47,663 nt of DNA. It comes from ANME-2 cluster archaeon (lineage in GTDB: Archaea; Halobacteriota; Methanosarcinia; Methanosarcinales; Methanocomedenaceae). Below are positions 7,529 through 42,567 of this stretch, one piece after another. The stretch is from assembly GCA_014237145.1 (NCBI GenBank), contig JAAXOC010000046.1, positions 1-47,663 on the forward strand, read 5' to 3'. Below the pieces are notes generated by a model. That model had not been told where the DNA came from. It was given only the letters and a program-made list of their open reading frames with translations, and did not search any database. A program made the translations under genes and the position numbers. Numbering within the stretch: position 1 is the stretch's first letter; the number at the start of each line of letters is the position of its first letter.

Positions 7529-10500
7529 ATGAGAAAAATAACTGTTAGTTTGTTTGTGTTCTGTTTGATATTGATCATTGAAAATGCGGCTGCAGTTACT
7601 GCAAGTCCGTATCCTTTCACACTTGAGCAGCCGGATGGGTATAGTTTCCAGGCTAGGCAGTATGGGGATGAACGTCTTCACTGGATTGAGACTTTGGATG
7701 GGTATACTATTGTCAAAGAAGAAAAAGGTTGGTGGACGTATGCGGCAAAAAACAATGAAGGGAAATTGATTCCTACAAATAACCGTGTGGGAATGGTTAA
7801 ACCGCTAAGTATAGATATTGAAAAACATGTTACACCGATTTGGAAGCCAGATGACATTATGATTAGAAAATCCTCTCCCAGACCTGTTAAGATCAAGACA
7901 CTTGATCTAAAAGCAAATGGGGTGTCTGGAATCGCATCTGTAACCACAGAAAAAGTTGTAGTAATTTTAATCAATTTCACAGATGTTTCTCAGGAATCTA
8001 CACATGACAAAACCTATTATGATAATCTCATCTTCAACGATTCAACTGACGCCAATAGTATGTTTAACTATTATAGGGAAGTCTCATATGATCAGTTAAA
8101 TATTACAGGTACAACTGGAAGTAAATGGTACCAAAGTTCGCATAAGATGGCGTATTATGGGGAAGACGCTACCGATATTGATGAAAATACAACCCGCAGT
8201 GATCCAAATACATGTTATATTGAAAATCTGGCAAGAGAAACTGTTCAATTGGCAGACGATGATTTTAATTTTTCTGAATACGATACCGACTCCGATGGAG
8301 TTGTCGATCATGTCATAATAGTACATGCAGGCAATGCCCAAGAATCAAGTGGGGTTTATGATGATATCTGGTCACATCAAGGGAGCATCTGGAATTATTA
8401 CAGCGGGAGTTGGCATGAAGATGGTGAAATGACTGATGATGGAGTAAAGGTGATCGGTTATACAATGGTGGCCGAGAGCTCTCCCCTTGGTACTTTTGCA
8501 CATGAATTCTTCCATGATCTGGGAGCGCCGGATTTATATGATTACGACACGGGAGTTGATGAAGGTTTTCCGGTGCAGGATTGGGATCTTATGGCTGGTG
8601 GCAGTTGGGCTAACTCGGGTAATACACCAACACATATGGGAGGCTATCTGAAATGGGATATCGATGCTGACCCGACTAATGGAATTAACGGCTGGTTAAC
8701 GCCTACAACAGTTTCAACTCCGCAAACTGTTGCAATAGACCGACTGGAATCAAGTACAGGAAACAGGCTTTTCAAGGTAGATATTCCAGAAACCAACCAA
8801 TATTTCTTAATCGAAAATCGACAACAAACTGGTTACGACGCTTATCTACCAGAAGCAGGAATTCTCATATGGCACATCGATGAAGACATGATATCATATC
8901 ATAATGACATTAAAGACGGTTGGGTAGATTTAAATGATGGACCGCCATGGAATCCTTACTACCGTGCATGGGTAGAAGACCCTGTAAACACTAGTTTAAA
9001 AGATGGCGCTGCTTATTCGTATGACGACGGTCAGACCTCATTCAACCAGACCACAATACCAAACAGCAGCCAGAACAATGGTGACCCTACTGGGATCAGG
9101 ATATACAATATCGGAGCTAAAGGTTCTTCAATGAACGTCACATTCTTCAATACCGCACCTACGGTCAATGTCATATCTCCCAATGGCGGAGAAACGATAT
9201 CAGGCAATATAAACATCATATGGACGCATAGCGATATCGATCCGACAGATACCCATACCTTTACCATTAAACTATCTTCTGACGGTGGCACTACATATCC
9301 CACAATAATAGTATCGGGATTGGGCGAATCGCTTTCGTCGTATGTCTACAACACCACGGACATGCCCGATGGTTCAAACTACAAGGTTCAGGTGATAGCC
9401 ACAGATAATTATACCCTGCCATTGAGTGGAAATGACTCATCTGACGGCGTATTTACCATCGATAACCACCCACCCGTATTGATTGGGAATCCTACCGGAT
9501 ATCCCGCAGGTCAGACCGCAGCTAAAAACGGCAGTCAAATAACGTTAAATGTCAGCATAATCGAATCTGGAGCAGGAATAAAGAATGCCACAGTTAATGC
9601 ATCCCAGATTAATGCAAGCTTGATCATACCCCTGATATTTGAAAAAGTGAACGATTACTGGATCAATCAGAGCATCATTGTCAATGCTGTAGATGGAGTT
9701 TATTACCTTCCGGTGACGGTTTACGATAATGCTTCAAGTACTAATACCAGTTCAGTCGTTCAGGTTATAGTCGATAACACTCCACCTGTTGTAATTGCAA
9801 ATCCAATCGGTTATCCTGATGGTTTAAGTGCTGCAAATAATGGTACAAGAATAATCCTTAATGCATCCATATCAGATACATTAGCAGGCGTTAAGAATTC
9901 TACAGTGAACGTCTCACAGATTAACAGCAGTTTCGGTGATATCCAATTGACCAATATTAACGGCTTCTGGATAAACGACCGTGTCATTGTAATGGCTCCG
10001 GATGGCACTTACTTTTTGAATTTCACAGCATATGATAATGCGTACAATTGCAACGATAGCGCTCAGGTTACAGTAGTGATAGATAGTACTATGCCTATCA
10101 TACTCAGTGCTGATGCTAATCCATCCGTTATTGAGTCAAACGGAACTGATAATACATTGCTAAATGTCACAGCGATTGATAATGGCAGCGAAATTGCATC
10201 GGTGACAATTAATCTTTCTGCGATCGGCGGATTGTCGGCTCAGGTAATGACCAATTACAGTGGAGTATGGCAGTTCATCACAAATACAACCAGTTTCGGC
10301 ACATTTGAACTACCGGTCAATGTCATAGATAATGCAGGCAATTCCAATACGTCTATTACGATCTTGCTGATCGCAAATGATACTACACTTCCGGTTGTGA
10401 TTGATACATTACCTAAAAACCTGGCAACTGATGTAACGATTGGTTCCAGCATTACAGCCACATTCAGCGAACCCATGAACAGTTCAACACTGAACGATGC

Positions 10501-12172
10501 AGCAATAAAAGTGTACAGTCTTTCAAGTGGCAAGATTACAGGTGATATCTTTGAAAATACCAATGGCACATGGAACTCCAGTAATTTCCAGGATTTAAGA
10601 TATGATGAGGAACTCACAGTTTTTCAAACTCCGATAGATGATGCACACAGAATCATTTTAAAGAATAATCTTGTATATTCAGCCAGCCCCCTAACGAGAT
10701 ACTATCAACTCTATATCTATCAAGGTGAAAAAGTAGCTGGATCTGAAAATTACAGTATTATCGGTTGGCTGGGAGATGAGTATGTTGCAGTAAATGGCAC
10801 ACCAAACAAATTGACAAAGCTAGTTTTAGAGCAAAAGTCCTATGAAACCAAAACATTGCGGATAAATGAGATTTGGGATATGGGAGATGGATATTCATTA
10901 GAGGTTGCTGAAATTGATTATTATGACGGTGAAGCATGGCTAGACTTGTATAAGAATGGTGGGCCTTTTAATAGTAAGGTAGTTGATAATCAGTCCTACT
11001 GGTGCGTGAAGGATGATATTGCAGGCGAGTCTAAGGTCCCAATTTTTGTAACCTATCTTGACAAGGTCACCAATAATACGATCCAGATAAAGTACACATG
11101 GTTAATATCTCAAGATGCCACTGTTATTAATTTGGGCGAATACTTCGGTGTGTTCGAAGTAAAATCTATTTCCAGTGATGCAATTCGATTGGCCAATGAT
11201 GAAAATGTCTCGCTGAGAAGAGGCAGCGCAATACCTCTGGCAAATGATCTGAAGTTTGAGGTTGAGGATACCCCAACTGTACGATATTGTCTTGTAGGCA
11301 CAGGTGAAAAAAAGACGGGATTGGTAGGGGATATTTCTTATGACAGCGCCATCAGAACAGTGACTTTTGATCCCGTTTCCAATCTTATGTATGATACAAA
11401 TTATATTTCATACATTACAACCGTTGCAGAAGATCCGGCTGGTAATGGTTTAATAGAAGATTATGAATGGGAATTCAAGACAATGTATTATACTCCGAGT
11501 AGAAATGGCGGGGGAGGAGGAGGAGGTGGCACCTCTGGAGAAGACTACTATAATATTGTCCTTTCAGAAACCGACAGGCAGAGCGTATTCAAGAACTCGC
11601 GTATCTCATATAGGTTCGATCTGGAGGGCAACATAGTCAAGCATATCAATTTCACAGCCCTGAATAGCGCCGGTACAATAGCCGCCAAAGTTGAGATATT
11701 GAATAATACCTCTACGATGGTGAGCACACCGCCACCAAATGAAATATATAAAAACCTGAACCTATGGGTCGGAAACGCTGGATGGGCTACAAAGAGGAAT
11801 ATTGCCGATGTCACTGTTGTTTTCACTGTAGATAAATCATGGATCACTGAAAACAATATCGATGAATCATCAATAGCCCTCTATCGTTACAGTGATGATA
11901 CATGGCATGAACTGATAACCAGAAAAATCGCCGAGGATGCCAATAGTTTACAATTTGAAGCTGAAACGCCAGGATTTTCACCATTTGCTGTAACAGGTAA
12001 AGGGGGAGAGGGAGAAACAGGAGGAGAAGATATTATTGCAGAGCCTACAGTAACAGTAGATAAAACCCCTGTCCCGACACCAACTGAGAAGAAAGGGATA
12101 CCTGGATTTAGTCTATTTGCAGGCTTGTCGATCTTGTTGATAGCAGTGCAGTTATTGCGTAAAAAGAACTAA
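7529..12172 (+). CDS. Giant M6-type surface metalloprotease with S-layer and PGF-CTERM domains
   Basis: A 1547-residue cell-surface protein. Order: signal peptide (1-22); M6/immune-inhibitor-A-like protease with zinc motif HEFFHDLGAPD at 325-335 (His325, Glu326, His329), preceded by a DTDSDGVVDH calcium-type loop; several Ig-like repeats (about 540-950), including two close copies carrying the VDNTPPV type spacer; an SbsA-type Ig (Big_5) domain beginning near 953 and interrupted by a Methanosarcina-type S-layer domain (about 1021-1262, with SYWCVKDDIAGESKVPIFVTYLD split over that region) before finishing at 1266-1319; a polyglycine linker (1327-1336); a PGF-pre-PGF domain (1338-1490); and a PGF-CTERM tail GIPGFSLFAGLSILLIAVQ plus RKKN for archaeosortase processing. 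Many NxS/T sequons fit heavy glycosylation. It probably cleaves extracellular protein while held in the S-layer. Start: AGAGG precedes ATG 7529. Confidence 0.9.
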   Translation: MRKITVSLFVFCLILIIENAAAVTASPYPFTLEQPDGYSFQARQYGDERLHWIETLDGYTIVKEEKGWWTYAAKNNEGKLIPTNNRVGMVKPLSIDIEKHVTPIWKPDDIMIRKSSPRPVKIKTLDLKANGVSGIASVTTEKVVVILINFTDVSQESTHDKTYYDNLIFNDSTDANSMFNYYREVSYDQLNITGTTGSKWYQSSHKMAYYGEDATDIDENTTRSDPNTCYIENLARETVQLADDDFNFSEYDTDSDGVVDHVIIVHAGNAQESSGVYDDIWSHQGSIWNYYSGSWHEDGEMTDDGVKVIGYTMVAESSPLGTFAHEFFHDLGAPDLYDYDTGVDEGFPVQDWDLMAGGSWANSGNTPTHMGGYLKWDIDADPTNGINGWLTPTTVSTPQTVAIDRLESSTGNRLFKVDIPETNQYFLIENRQQTGYDAYLPEAGILIWHIDEDMISYHNDIKDGWVDLNDGPPWNPYYRAWVEDPVNTSLKDGAAYSYDDGQTSFNQTTIPNSSQNNGDPTGIRIYNIGAKGSSMNVTFFNTAPTVNVISPNGGETISGNINIIWTHSDIDPTDTHTFTIKLSSDGGTTYPTIIVSGLGESLSSYVYNTTDMPDGSNYKVQVIATDNYTLPLSGNDSSDGVFTIDNHPPVLIGNPTGYPAGQTAAKNGSQITLNVSIIESGAGIKNATVNASQINASLIIPLIFEKVNDYWINQSIIVNAVDGVYYLPVTVYDNASSTNTSSVVQVIVDNTPPVVIANPIGYPDGLSAANNGTRIILNASISDTLAGVKNSTVNVSQINSSFGDIQLTNINGFWINDRVIVMAPDGTYFLNFTAYDNAYNCNDSAQVTVVIDSTMPIILSADANPSVIESNGTDNTLLNVTAIDNGSEIASVTINLSAIGGLSAQVMTNYSGVWQFITNTTSFGTFELPVNVIDNAGNSNTSITILLIANDTTLPVVIDTLPKNLATDVTIGSSITATFSEPMNSSTLNDAAIKVYSLSSGKITGDIFENTNGTWNSSNFQDLRYDEELTVFQTPIDDAHRIILKNNLVYSASPLTRYYQLYIYQGEKVAGSENYSIIGWLGDEYVAVNGTPNKLTKLVLEQKSYETKTLRINEIWDMGDGYSLEVAEIDYYDGEAWLDLYKNGGPFNSKVVDNQSYWCVKDDIAGESKVPIFVTYLDKVTNNTIQIKYTWLISQDATVINLGEYFGVFEVKSISSDAIRLANDENVSLRRGSAIPLANDLKFEVEDTPTVRYCLVGTGEKKTGLVGDISYDSAIRTVTFDPVSNLMYDTNYISYITTVAEDPAGNGLIEDYEWEFKTMYYTPSRNGGGGGGGGTSGEDYYNIVLSETDRQSVFKNSRISYRFDLEGNIVKHINFTALNSAGTIAAKVEILNNTSTMVSTPPPNEIYKNLNLWVGNAGWATKRNIADVTVVFTVDKSWITENNIDESSIALYRYSDDTWHELITRKIAEDANSLQFEAETPGFSPFAVTGKGGEGETGGEDIIAEPTVTVDKTPVPTPTEKKGIPGFSLFAGLSILLIAVQLLRKKN

Positions 12173-15031: not shown

Positions 15032-16519
15032 TCACAGTGTTTTTTGTGATTTATCCGTACATACAAGGAAAACAGAAATTGGTATAAACAATAGGTCTTT
15101 ATGAATTTCAAACTGGTTTTTTGTTAGCACAATTGTCATCTTGACTTCAGGTGTCCATGTAATTTCCTGCGTATTAACCTCTTCTTTATATTTCACCTCG
15201 ATTCCAAGATACCCATCACCCTTGTAAATGAAATCTATTTCTTTGCCGGTACGAGTAGTATAATAGAACCACAAATAAGTATTCCATTCCCTAAGATATG
15301 GAATTTCCTTTGTCTGGGCAAGATGGTTTTCAACTATACCTTCAATTAGTACATCCTTATTTCTTGATACAATTTCCTTGCTGGCAGTAAAACCGTCCTC
15401 ACCAGATAATAGCGAATTGATGCTGTAAAAAATGAATGGATTTGAAAAATATATTTTCTTATCACCTTTAAATCTGGGAGTTTTTTTAGTGAAATCGTAG
15501 GAACTCAGCACATCTACCAAAAGGGAGTTCTGGAATAGTTCGAGATACTCGATAATAGTCTGGTGTACAATGCCGCCTGTACTTTTCCCTAAAGTTGTAT
15601 AACTATATCTTGTACAGTATTTTGTTGCAATATTTTTCAGGATATCTTTTGCTGTGGTTTCACTTCTTCGCAGCTTAGAAATGTCTCCGAGTATAAGCCT
15701 GATGAATGTTTCATATATTTTACCATCAATATTCCCGGATTCATGAATATATTTTTGAGCCAGGTAATCATTCACAACCAGGGGAATACCCCCGGTCAGG
15801 ATGTATATTTCGAACAGCCAATCAAGTTCCTCTTTATATGGTAAGGCCTTCTTGATTGTGGAAACGTTAAAATTATCCATATCGATTTTGCTATATAAAA
15901 TGGCATCCTTCGATTTTTTCAAGGCATTTGCCAGTTCTTTGGATGTGGTGAACTCTGCTATTCTTTCGATGGATTGCAGGGCAAAATCCCTGAAACTCAA
16001 GGGTTTGAAGTAGTATTCATTACCTTCCACTCTTCTTCCGGGAAGCCGTTCGGTTTTTTCCTTCAACTTGATAGGATTTGACCCTGTTGCGACTACTATC
16101 AACTTATCAATATAATTCCCATCGGCAATGGTTTTTAATTCCAGCACCCAATCCTTTAGATATGTTATTTCATCCAGAAAAATGTATAATGCTGATGATT
16201 CCATATTTTGCTGTAGAAAATTTGATACCAGATTATGAAGTTCTTTTCTTGATGAGAGCCTGTCACATGAGATAAATAATATTGTTTGCGGGTCGGTGCC
16301 TTCATTAAGCAGCCTAAGGATTGTCTGCTTTATATAAGTGGTCTTACCTATCTGCCGCATACCTCTTATTATGTAAATGTTGCCGCTTTGCAGGTCGATG
16401 GGCTTTCTTTTAAATTCTATAAAGGCCTCACTTAGTTCCCTCAAGTGACGGTCATATCTATGGAAGTCATTGCCAAACTTCCACCATATATTTTCCTTTG
16501 ATAGCTCTTCAAATCTCAC
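15032..16519 (-). CDS. AAA_14/DUF4143 ATPase
   Basis: A 495-residue ATPase. N-terminal AAA_14 domain: Walker A GMRQIGKTT at 53-61, Walker B ALYIFLDEIT with Asp116-Glu117, sensor-1 type VVATGSNP. The C-terminal DUF4143 part ends in a PD-(D/E)XK-like pattern, GKEIDFIY (Asp429) then GIEVKYK (Glu441, Lys443). This large archaeal and bacterial family has no firmly assigned function; it often sits in accessory or mobile DNA. Immediately upstream is an array of six 22-bp palindromes at 32-bp spacing, ending 1 bp before the ATG, so no normal Shine-Dalgarno is present and the array probably overlaps the promoter. It follows tyrA on the same strand but is probably an independent unit. Confidence 0.88.
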   Translation of the reverse strand: MRFEELSKENIWWKFGNDFHRYDRHLRELSEAFIEFKRKPIDLQSGNIYIIRGMRQIGKTTYIKQTILRLLNEGTDPQTILFISCDRLSSRKELHNLVSNFLQQNMESSALYIFLDEITYLKDWVLELKTIADGNYIDKLIVVATGSNPIKLKEKTERLPGRRVEGNEYYFKPLSFRDFALQSIERIAEFTTSKELANALKKSKDAILYSKIDMDNFNVSTIKKALPYKEELDWLFEIYILTGGIPLVVNDYLAQKYIHESGNIDGKIYETFIRLILGDISKLRRSETTAKDILKNIATKYCTRYSYTTLGKSTGGIVHQTIIEYLELFQNSLLVDVLSSYDFTKKTPRFKGDKKIYFSNPFIFYSINSLLSGEDGFTASKEIVSRNKDVLIEGIVENHLAQTKEIPYLREWNTYLWFYYTTRTGKEIDFIYKGDGYLGIEVKYKEEVNTQEITWTPEVKMTIVLTKNQFEIHKDLLFIPISVFLVCTDKSQKTL

Positions 16520-16520
16520 A

Positions 16521-16702
16521 TTTGGTTATTACAATTACCAAATGATAAACATTTTGGTAATCGTAGTTACCAAAATAACCGATATTTGGTAATCGTAATT
16601 ACCAAAATAACCGATATTTGGTAATAGTAATTACCAAAATGACAAATATTTGGTAATTGTAATTACTAAAATAACCGATATTTGGTAATCATAGTTACCA
16701 AA
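16521..16702. repeat. Six 22-bp palindromes with exact 32-bp period
   Basis: Palindromes of the form TTTGGTAAT-N4-ATTACCAAA start at 16521, 16553, 16585, 16617, 16649 and 16681, each 22 bp long with 10-bp spacers. Three of the five spacers are identical (ATAACCGATA). The 32-bp period is close to three turns of B-DNA, so a dimeric protein binding each site would line up on one face. The array fills the gap between tyrA and the AAA_14 ATPase start. It looks like an operator or iteron cluster. It is not CRISPR: the period equals one repeat plus a conserved short spacer. Confidence 0.9.
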
Positions 16703-16744: not shown

Positions 16745-18052
16745 TTACCTTAACGTACACCCTATACCCGACAGCAGGTCATTTACCTTCCTGTGGACAT
16801 CACCTGCATCCAGGTCACCTCTGATGGTAATCCTGATAGTCACACTGGTACTGTCACTGTTAGGGTGAATATAAACATCAATTACCCTGACTGAAACCAC
16901 ACCGTCCACCTGGGAAATGATATCTTTGATGATCTCTGGTCTGGCACCATGTGGGATGAATGCGGATACATCCCGACTTGAGTGGTCAAGGTTGTTCTTC
17001 TTCCATTCAAGCAGTTCATCCATATGCAGCAGGCAGGTATTCTCAATCTTGAGTTCGACCTCCCTGCCTCCCCGCTCAATAGTCACCATAAGGGGTGTAA
17101 CCTTCCTGACCGTGCCAATATGGGTCACTCCCGAATACTGGTGACGCAGTCCCCGTTCTTCACCAATGGAACGGATCAGTTCCTGGAATTCCGATATCTT
17201 GGTATTGATCAATTTGTCAGAGCGTCCAAGTGCAGCCTGGGTATCACCGAAATGAACCGCCGATCGCTTTATAATATCCACAAAACCCTGGACATCGTTA
17301 CTGTTGACCTTATCTGACATGTCCTCGCACACTTTCATGAATGCCTGGTGGACAGCCTTCACTTCCGGGTTCATCTGGATCATGGCATAGAGGTACGGGT
17401 TCTGGGCCAGTATCCTGCCTACAAAATCCAGCATAATCTCATAGACCGGGCTCATGAACCTGCGGGAAGCGGGAACGTCAAAGTCAAGTTCTGCCGTGGC
17501 AGCACCGATGGAGATGTATGCAAAATGGGTCAAACCCTGCACCACAGCCATCATCCGGTCATGTTCCTGTGGGGTTGCCAATTCGATATGGGCACCTTGC
17601 TCCTCATACAATGAACGGATCACAGGCAGCCAGTGTTCACTACGTCTTTCAACAGGTACCAGTATAATGATCTGGCCGTGCAGGTCAGGAATGGTGGGAC
17701 CGAACATGGGGTGAGTGCCAAGTATCTCAACACCAACAGGTGCATATTGCTGCATAGCATGCACGGGCATGGTCTTGACCGAAGTAATATCCATTAGCAA
17801 ACTGCCCGGTTTCATTTTGGGTGCAATATCTGCTATCACCTGTTCGGTGAGATCAATTGGGACAGATACCATTACCGCATCAGACAGTGCCAACTCTTTA
17901 TCCAGGTCATCGGCAAAGGGCACGCCAAGTCTTTCAGCGATATCCTTCCTCTTATTTGCACCCCATACCGTTACATCCCATCCATGTTTTTTGTAGAACC
18001 GGGTGAACCACTCCCCAGTTTCGCCTGTGCCGCCAATGATCAGGATCTTCAT
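16745..18052 (-). CDS. tyrA: Prephenate dehydrogenase with C-terminal FDX-ACB-like domain
   Basis: A 435-residue enzyme that oxidises and decarboxylates prephenate to 4-hydroxyphenylpyruvate for tyrosine. N-terminal Rossmann motif IIGGTGETGEW (residues 5-15), then the prephenate dehydrogenase core with GTHPMFGPT and an all-alpha dimer part with HDRMMAVVQGLTHF. The last 80 or so residues (RDVSAFIPHG..., VRVIDVYIHP, SVTIRITIRGD, ending GCTLR) read like a ferredoxin-fold anticodon-binding (FDX-ACB) domain, known best from phenylalanyl-tRNA synthetase. It is last in the aro operon, 26 bp after aroE. ATG at 18052 (GGA about 6 nt upstream) is preferred over GTG at 18061. Confidence 0.9.
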   Translation of the reverse strand: MKILIIGGTGETGEWFTRFYKKHGWDVTVWGANKRKDIAERLGVPFADDLDKELALSDAVMVSVPIDLTEQVIADIAPKMKPGSLLMDITSVKTMPVHAMQQYAPVGVEILGTHPMFGPTIPDLHGQIIILVPVERRSEHWLPVIRSLYEEQGAHIELATPQEHDRMMAVVQGLTHFAYISIGAATAELDFDVPASRRFMSPVYEIMLDFVGRILAQNPYLYAMIQMNPEVKAVHQAFMKVCEDMSDKVNSNDVQGFVDIIKRSAVHFGDTQAALGRSDKLINTKISEFQELIRSIGEERGLRHQYSGVTHIGTVRKVTPLMVTIERGGREVELKIENTCLLHMDELLEWKKNNLDHSSRDVSAFIPHGARPEIIKDIISQVDGVVSVRVIDVYIHPNSDSTSVTIRITIRGDLDAGDVHRKVNDLLSGIGCTLR

Positions 18053-18078
18053 AGTATCCACTGTAATTTCATCAACTG

Positions 18079-42463: not shown

Positions 42464-42567
42464 GGGCTCGTAGATCAGTTGGAAGATCGCTGCCTTTGCA
42501 ACTATGGGTGCGAAAGTACCCTACGCAAAACAGGCAGAGGCCCTGGGTTCGAGTCCCAGCGGGTCCA
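42464..42567 (+). tRNA. tRNA-Ala(TGC) with a 31-nt intron
   Basis: The acceptor GGGCTCG pairs with CGGGTCC before discriminator A at 42567. The anticodon arm is CTGCC (42490-42494), loop TTTGCA with anticodon TGC at 42497-42499, then an intron 42501-42531, then A and GGCAG (42533-42537). The T arm GGGTTCGAGTCCC is normal. Without the intron the tRNA is 73 nt. Inside the intron GGGT...ACCC forms a hairpin and GCAA can pair with the anticodon side, as in a bulge-helix-bulge splice site at position 37/38. It lies in the 16S-23S spacer, a common place for tRNA-Ala in Euryarchaeota. No CCA is encoded. Confidence 0.9.

Follow-up and report, generated by a model that had tools for sequence, protein, structure and literature searches.

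The stretch of DNA analysed here (the window, 47,663 nucleotides of contig JAAXOC010000046.1 in assembly GCA_014237145.1 of an ANME-2 cluster archaeon) contains an array of six phased palindromes directly in front of the gene for P0001, an AAA_14/DUF4143 ATPase, and the comparisons reported below indicate that this array is probably a multi-copy autoregulatory operator read by the ATPase encoded downstream. Upstream arrays are a family-wide feature of these ATPases in Archaea and Bacteria, with gene-specific palindromes, making the feature much broader than was held in an earlier interpretation made from the letters of the window (the sequence-only reading).

The palindromes of the window array follow the consensus TTTGGTAAT-N4-ATTACCAAA, with 1, 1, 0, 0, 1, and 1 mismatches in palindromes 1 to 6, respectively, and neighbouring copies start exactly 32 bp apart at every step. 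Among the five 10-bp spacers, three share the sequence ATAACCGATA, and the period-32 score of the array was 94, a value that shuffled versions of this segment (13 or less) did not approach, confirming the six palindromes, the exact 32-bp steps and the three identical spacers of the sequence-only reading (coordinates in Table 1). That reading also placed the array 1 bp from the ATG of the ATPase gene; the distance holds, but the start codon beside the array is a GTG (16517-16519), the ATG at the array edge being out of frame and followed by a TGA. When the archaeon's own genome assembly (118 contigs, 2.97 Mb) was scanned with the palindrome, matches with up to two mismatches were found nowhere outside the array, and allowing three mismatches gave 7 matches compared to 6 with a reversed-pattern control. 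The palindrome is thus not scattered over unrelated sites, and the array follows the gene family.

When 186 genomes of the order were searched with a pattern of 1.5 array units, matching arrays turned up in nine other genomes, and in seven of these the array stands immediately before an orthologue of P0001 (69-97% identity). In all eight orthologues (8/8) the register is the same, with the last palindrome ending at the start codon, and the copy number ranges from 2 to 8 (6 in the window; 8, 3, 3, 2, 3, 3, and 3 in the seven other genomes). In the window the array sits between the ATPase gene and the 3' end of the prephenate dehydrogenase gene tyrA; three of the seven other orthologues likewise lie beside tyrA, and the orthologues at L031-L034 are found in unrelated DNA without conservation upstream of the array. 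Since other orthologues sit in different contexts, the prephenate dehydrogenase gene is outside the array-ATPase unit, and it is the ATPase gene with which the array moves. Several other identities of the array were rejected: a CRISPR array, since the spacers are only 10 bp long and three of five are identical as opposed to unique spacers of ~30-40 bp; an iteron or replication origin, since the arrays precede ATPase genes that stand singly and in varied chromosomal surroundings, such as beside tyrA; and transposon ends, since the array is one-sided.

The survey of upstream periodicity covered Pfam-found family members in 60 genomes of the archaeal phylum, 60 genomes of a phylum of Bacteria (WOR-3) and a number of plasmids, and scored the tandem period over 150 bp upstream of the start codon (chosen by rule) with a threshold of 14. 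Among the archaeal members, 42 of 79 reached the threshold, with a period of 31-35 bp in 34 cases and of 23 bp in 5, compared to 0.44% of dinucleotide shuffles and 13 of 250 other open reading frame (ORF) starts at the same loci, which had no common period (members versus other ORF starts, Fisher p 5e-20). Segments within the same genes reached the threshold in 2 of 76 cases, and so did 2 of 76 downstream segments. In the small bacterial sample, 6 of 24 members were over the threshold, all at 32-33 bp. The plasmid homologues had a best period of exactly 40 bp in 5 of 18 cases (the bacterial or archaeal L173, L175, L181, L185, and L187), strong in L173 and L175, and the 23-bp period belongs to a separate DUF4143 ATPase clade (L093, L094, L096, L128, and L131), where it lies 10-100 bp before the start codon. 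The spacing appears to be clade-specific at roughly two, three or four helical turns, the 40-bp class resting on few cases. Array-bearing proteins fall into 23 clusters at 45% identity, 19 of them with a score of at least 14, and the link to the AAA_14/DUF4143 family drawn by the sequence-only reading is strongly supported.

In the archaeon's own genome (~3 Mb, ~31 DUF4143 matches), 31-35-bp arrays with a score of at least 11 were found before 11 of 23 scorable DUF4143 genes, compared to 1 of 19 genes of the ATPase_2 family (PF01637), a sister family of the DUF4143 ATPases, and none of 30 ABC genes (p 4e-6). With ~31 DUF4143 matches and ~20 ATPase_2 genes on contigs C7 to C117, the genome has an unusually large set of AAA+ ATPase-nuclease genes. 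The ATPase_2 genes L211 and L210 have upstream repeats with periods of 32 and 30, respectively, and a palindrome spans the start of L207, so that the sister family may follow a similar design.

Many DUF4143 upstream regions of this genome hold differing palindromes as 32-34-bp tandem units (Table 1). Mean palindrome similarity between orthologues of different genomes was 0.754 at 60% identity or more and 0.634 at 40-60%, compared to 0.558 between paralogues of the same genome, where none of 130 ordered pairs reached 0.75, and 0.548 between unrelated members. Since orthologues share palindromes across genomes whereas paralogues within a genome do not, the motif follows the protein rather than the host, which is our chief reason for proposing that the motif is read by the protein and not by a host regulator. 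When the motifs of P0001 and L017 were checked genome-wide at 0-1 mismatch, each was found solely before its own ATPase gene. In a second orthologous group, which is 31-35% identical to P0001 and spread over Methanosarcinales genera, the half-sites change symmetrically from TGGTCA/TGACCA to TGGTTA/TAACCA, the kind of change expected if a symmetric dimer reads the site. Within one orthologous group, members with TGGTCA-type half-sites have SHNT as the putative recognition helix and those with TGGTTA have AHVT, a pairing that may represent one evolutionary event. At L068, a second TGGTCA-type array with TATA-like boxes was observed downstream of an array-bearing ATPase gene, where it perhaps precedes another family member or a relic.

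The array sites overlap the predicted core promoter. At the position of the candidate TATA box in the last spacer (Table 1), orthologues read CTATATTT or TTTATTAT, and the TATA-like 8-mers of archaeal members peak at -30 to -26 from the start codon. If the archaeal mRNAs are leaderless, the last palindrome would lie between the TATA box and the transcription start. The second orthologous group has a TATATAAA-type box in its spacers, and bacterial L166 has a sigma70 promoter (11 of 12 bases matched), with the -35 box inside a palindrome and the -10 box just before the next one. These positions relative to the promoter boxes fit repression by steric block. The sequence-only reading had considered both operator-like sites and iterons; the former are strongly supported, and nothing was found in support of the latter.

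The P0001 reading frame is complete, without internal stops, and the protein scores above the Pfam cut-offs for AAA_14 (91.2 bits, cut-off 27) and DUF4143 (51.4 bits, cut-off 28.1). Its Walker A (G-x-R-x-x-GKT) and Walker B (FLDE) motifs are intact, and alignment of members showed them to be conserved. Several other members have weak HTH_36, HTH_11, HTH_Tnp_ISL3 or HrcA profile matches at the place equivalent to residues ~290-340 of P0001, and this part of P0001, which itself had no helix-turn-helix (HTH) match in the profile search, aligns with member sequences such as SFRKISSALGIDVDTVIRYVRYLEETYLV that match HTH profiles weakly. E393, E427, and D429 are invariant across 26 aligned members, the ExK part of the nuclease-like motif reads IEVK in P0001 and IQV in several members, and some members have weak Mrr_cat/NERD profile matches. 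Together, this suggests that P0001 is an AAA+ ATPase with winged HTH (wHTH)-like and PD-(D/E)XK-like parts. A search of solved structures with P0001 alone gave no relative; with the family profile, the matches included 2fna, annotated in the PDB only as "conserved hypothetical protein", which we take to be the archaeal ATPase SSO1545. Scans of viral contigs with four family members found no relatives.

Based on these observations, we propose that a dimeric winged-helix part of the downstream AAA+ ATPase would bind each palindrome, and that copies about three helical turns apart would allow several dimers, or an ATP-dependent oligomer, to line up next to one another. The unit lengths, close to whole numbers of helical turns, suggest cooperativity along one DNA face. 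The bound proteins would cover the core promoter and block TATA-binding protein and transcription factor B, or in bacteria sigma factor and RNA polymerase, thereby limiting a potentially harmful ATPase-nuclease to low amounts until the repression would be lifted, for example by an invader or by an altered nucleotide state. A reason to repress would be that the ATPase bears a nuclease, possibly related to defence. The ATPase as the binder, wHTH dimers, repression, cooperativity on one DNA face and release on infection are all inferred parts of this model.

Several observations weigh against the array being an operator read by its own ATPase. No array could be detected for about half of the family, and these members may use a single palindrome or another kind of control. 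The motif shared among orthologues could partly result from common descent, and when protein segments were compared with motifs in a sliding-window covariation analysis, the HTH was not singled out. The AlphaFold model of full-length P0001, built from a 5-sequence alignment, was too poor to confirm the wHTH (predicted local distance difference test, pLDDT, 36), and the model of the HTH fragment (pLDDT 66) had no meaningful fold match and left the wHTH unconfirmed. Moreover, the array can outlive the gene, since two palindromes without a detectable ATPase are kept at two loci that look like relics: L027 of relative G010, where the palindromes (1487-1546) are followed by a transposase-like ORF (1743-2606), and L030 of relative G015, a solo array of two good palindromes (1456-1545) beside tyrA with no detectable ATPase remnant.

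The weak recognition of the DNA-binding part of the ATPase by profiles, and a covariation that did not point to it, would also suit a separate transcription factor that binds the arrays and regulates the genes. Since paralogues differ in their palindromes and orthologues share them, this would however require dozens of dedicated regulators travelling with single genes. The neighbouring genes differ between orthologues and homologues, and the tested motifs are unique in the genome; we therefore regard a separate regulator as unlikely. We give a similarly low probability to the array being the working target of the ATPase, instead of or besides an operator, either as an iteron- or parS-like platform for AAA+ loading or as a docking site that keeps the protein inactive until it is displaced by invading DNA or a signal. 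The AAA+ fold, the phased sites in 2-8 copies, the nuclease-like domain and the annotation as candidate defence all agree with such a target, but the arrays stand at the start codon and overlap promoters, which is not required of replication or partition sites, chromosomal single genes make up most of the examples, and downstream segments almost never bear an array.

The patchy distribution, the differing genomic sites and the gene-less relics could also be explained if the palindromes were ends or attachment sites of a selfish element carrying the ATPase. This is very improbable, as the array is one-sided and in exact register with the start codon, the motif diverges with the protein, and the internal and downstream controls are clean. 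The upstream regions of family members are A+T-rich, so that a chance or compositional artefact of such intergenic DNA had to be considered, but with 0.44% of shuffles and 5% of other ORF starts over the threshold, the latter without a shared period, its probability is negligible, and for the family as a whole it is refuted by the shuffles and the ORF-start, internal and downstream controls. An autoregulatory operator read by the ATPase hence remains our preferred explanation.

P0001 is a candidate phage-defence protein, as judged from its match to the PADLOC PDC-S01 models (E 2e-24), which all 26 aligned members match as well. PDC-S01, an ATPase fused to PD-(D/E)XK, has been described as ranking fourth in frequency among the defences of prokaryotes, most candidates of this kind still awaiting validation by experiment (PMC12988326), and a search of that paper for palindromes and repeats showed that cis-arrays are not described there. 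Some homologues are found in defence loci, flanked by cas3 and cas4, flanked by hsdR and a DNA methyltransferase gene, or next to cas3. By its description, arCOG03166, an AAA+ ATPase fused to HTH and a RecB-type nuclease and likely a defence or plasmid gene (PMC4158269), has a domain order like that proposed for P0001; upstream palindromes are not mentioned in that source.

Phased cooperative autoregulatory sites and palindromic operators of defence regulators are already known. Dimers of Ss-LrpB and other archaeal Lrp-type autoregulators bind cooperatively to several sites in their own control region, two or three turns apart on one face (PMC2995911). The arrays share with them the phased multiple sites in the gene's own control region, and cooperative binding by dimers and autoregulation are proposed for the arrays as well. 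However, Lrp autoregulators are small regulators, whereas the P0001 family consists of predicted AAA+ nucleases. To our knowledge, there is no gene-specific array family of comparable size among the Lrp regulators. The WYL repressors BrxR/CapW restrain defence genes through palindromic operators before their own gene, and inverted repeats were found upstream of 193 of 347 BrxR homologues (PMC9122601). In contrast to these dedicated operon regulators, a putative effector ATPase would here regulate itself, and unlike their operators, the ATPase sites form a phased ladder. In agreement with the sequence-only reading, which knew of no such array for this ATPase family, we found no description in the open-access literature (subscription journals and preprints were outside the search), a single DUF4143 mention being unrelated, and nothing on the DNA target, regulation or mode of action of PDC-S01 ATPases. 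An enzyme family of AAA+ ATPase-nucleases whose many members carry private phased arrays is thus apparently new.

Two further features of the window were observed apart from the array. A 104-nt tRNA at 42464-42567, identified by Rfam in the 16S-23S spacer and missed by ARAGORN, is probably intron-containing or unusual, and 7529-12172 encodes a 1547-aa protein with an M6 peptidase, Big domains and an S-layer domain.

Table 1. Features of the array and the ATPase gene in the window, and palindromes of other family members in the same genome.
Feature	Position or unit	Strand	Basis or source
ATPase P0001, 495 aa, GTG start	15032..16519	-	ORF, profile search
AAA_14 domain, residues 47-179	15983..16381	-	Pfam E 7e-26
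DUF4143 region, residues 279-444	15188..15685	-	Pfam E 1e-13
Probable wHTH, ~residues 290-340	15500..15652	-	Alignment A1; weak HTH profile matches in other members
PD-(D/E)XK-like motif EID...GIEVK (E427, D429, E441, K443)	15191..15241	-	Alignment of 26 members, weak profile matches
Array of six 22-bp palindromes, period 32 bp, 10-bp spacers	16521..16702	.	Sequence, pattern search, shuffles
Palindrome 1, 1 base from start codon	16521..16542	.	Position kept in 8/8 orthologues
Candidate TATA box TTTATCAT (coding strand), last spacer, 23-30 bp before start codon	16542..16549	-	Sequence
Palindrome 2	16553..16574	.	Pattern search
Palindrome 3, perfect to consensus	16585..16606	.	Pattern search
Palindrome 4, perfect to consensus	16617..16638	.	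Pattern search
Palindrome 5	16649..16670	.	Pattern search
Palindrome 6	16681..16702	.	Pattern search
Prephenate dehydrogenase gene (tyrA), upstream neighbour of the array, same strand as ATPase	16745..18061	-	Profile search
L006 palindrome TGGTCA-N6-TGACCA	unit 34 bp		Own genome
L009 palindrome AAATTGTC/GACAATTT	unit 33 bp		Own genome
L010 palindrome TACC-N7-GGTA	unit 34 bp		Own genome
L014 palindrome TTATCG-N7-CGATAA	unit 32 bp		Own genome
L017 palindrome ATGGGTA-N6-TACCCAT	unit 33 bp		Own genome
L021 palindrome TATCAC-N4-GTGATA	unit 33 bp		Own genome

PDC-S01 ATPases are among the most abundant suspected defence proteins of prokaryotes, and a gene-specific array supplies a concrete candidate DNA ligand for each array-bearing protein. 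An operator array found family-wide predicts that the enzyme is its own repressor, makes the question of activation directly testable, and would yield many orthogonal protein-operator pairs useful for archaeal genetic tools. More speculatively, and with a low probability in our view, ATPase-nucleases of the PDC-S01 type might be self-addressing, such that the private cis array both represses the gene and docks or assembles the AAA+ nuclease in an inactive state, from which invading DNA or a signal would release it, coupling derepression to activation. If true, one of the commonest suspected defence families would turn out to use a new principle of regulation and sensing, with orthogonal addresses for the array-bearing members among the ~30 family genes of one archaeal genome.
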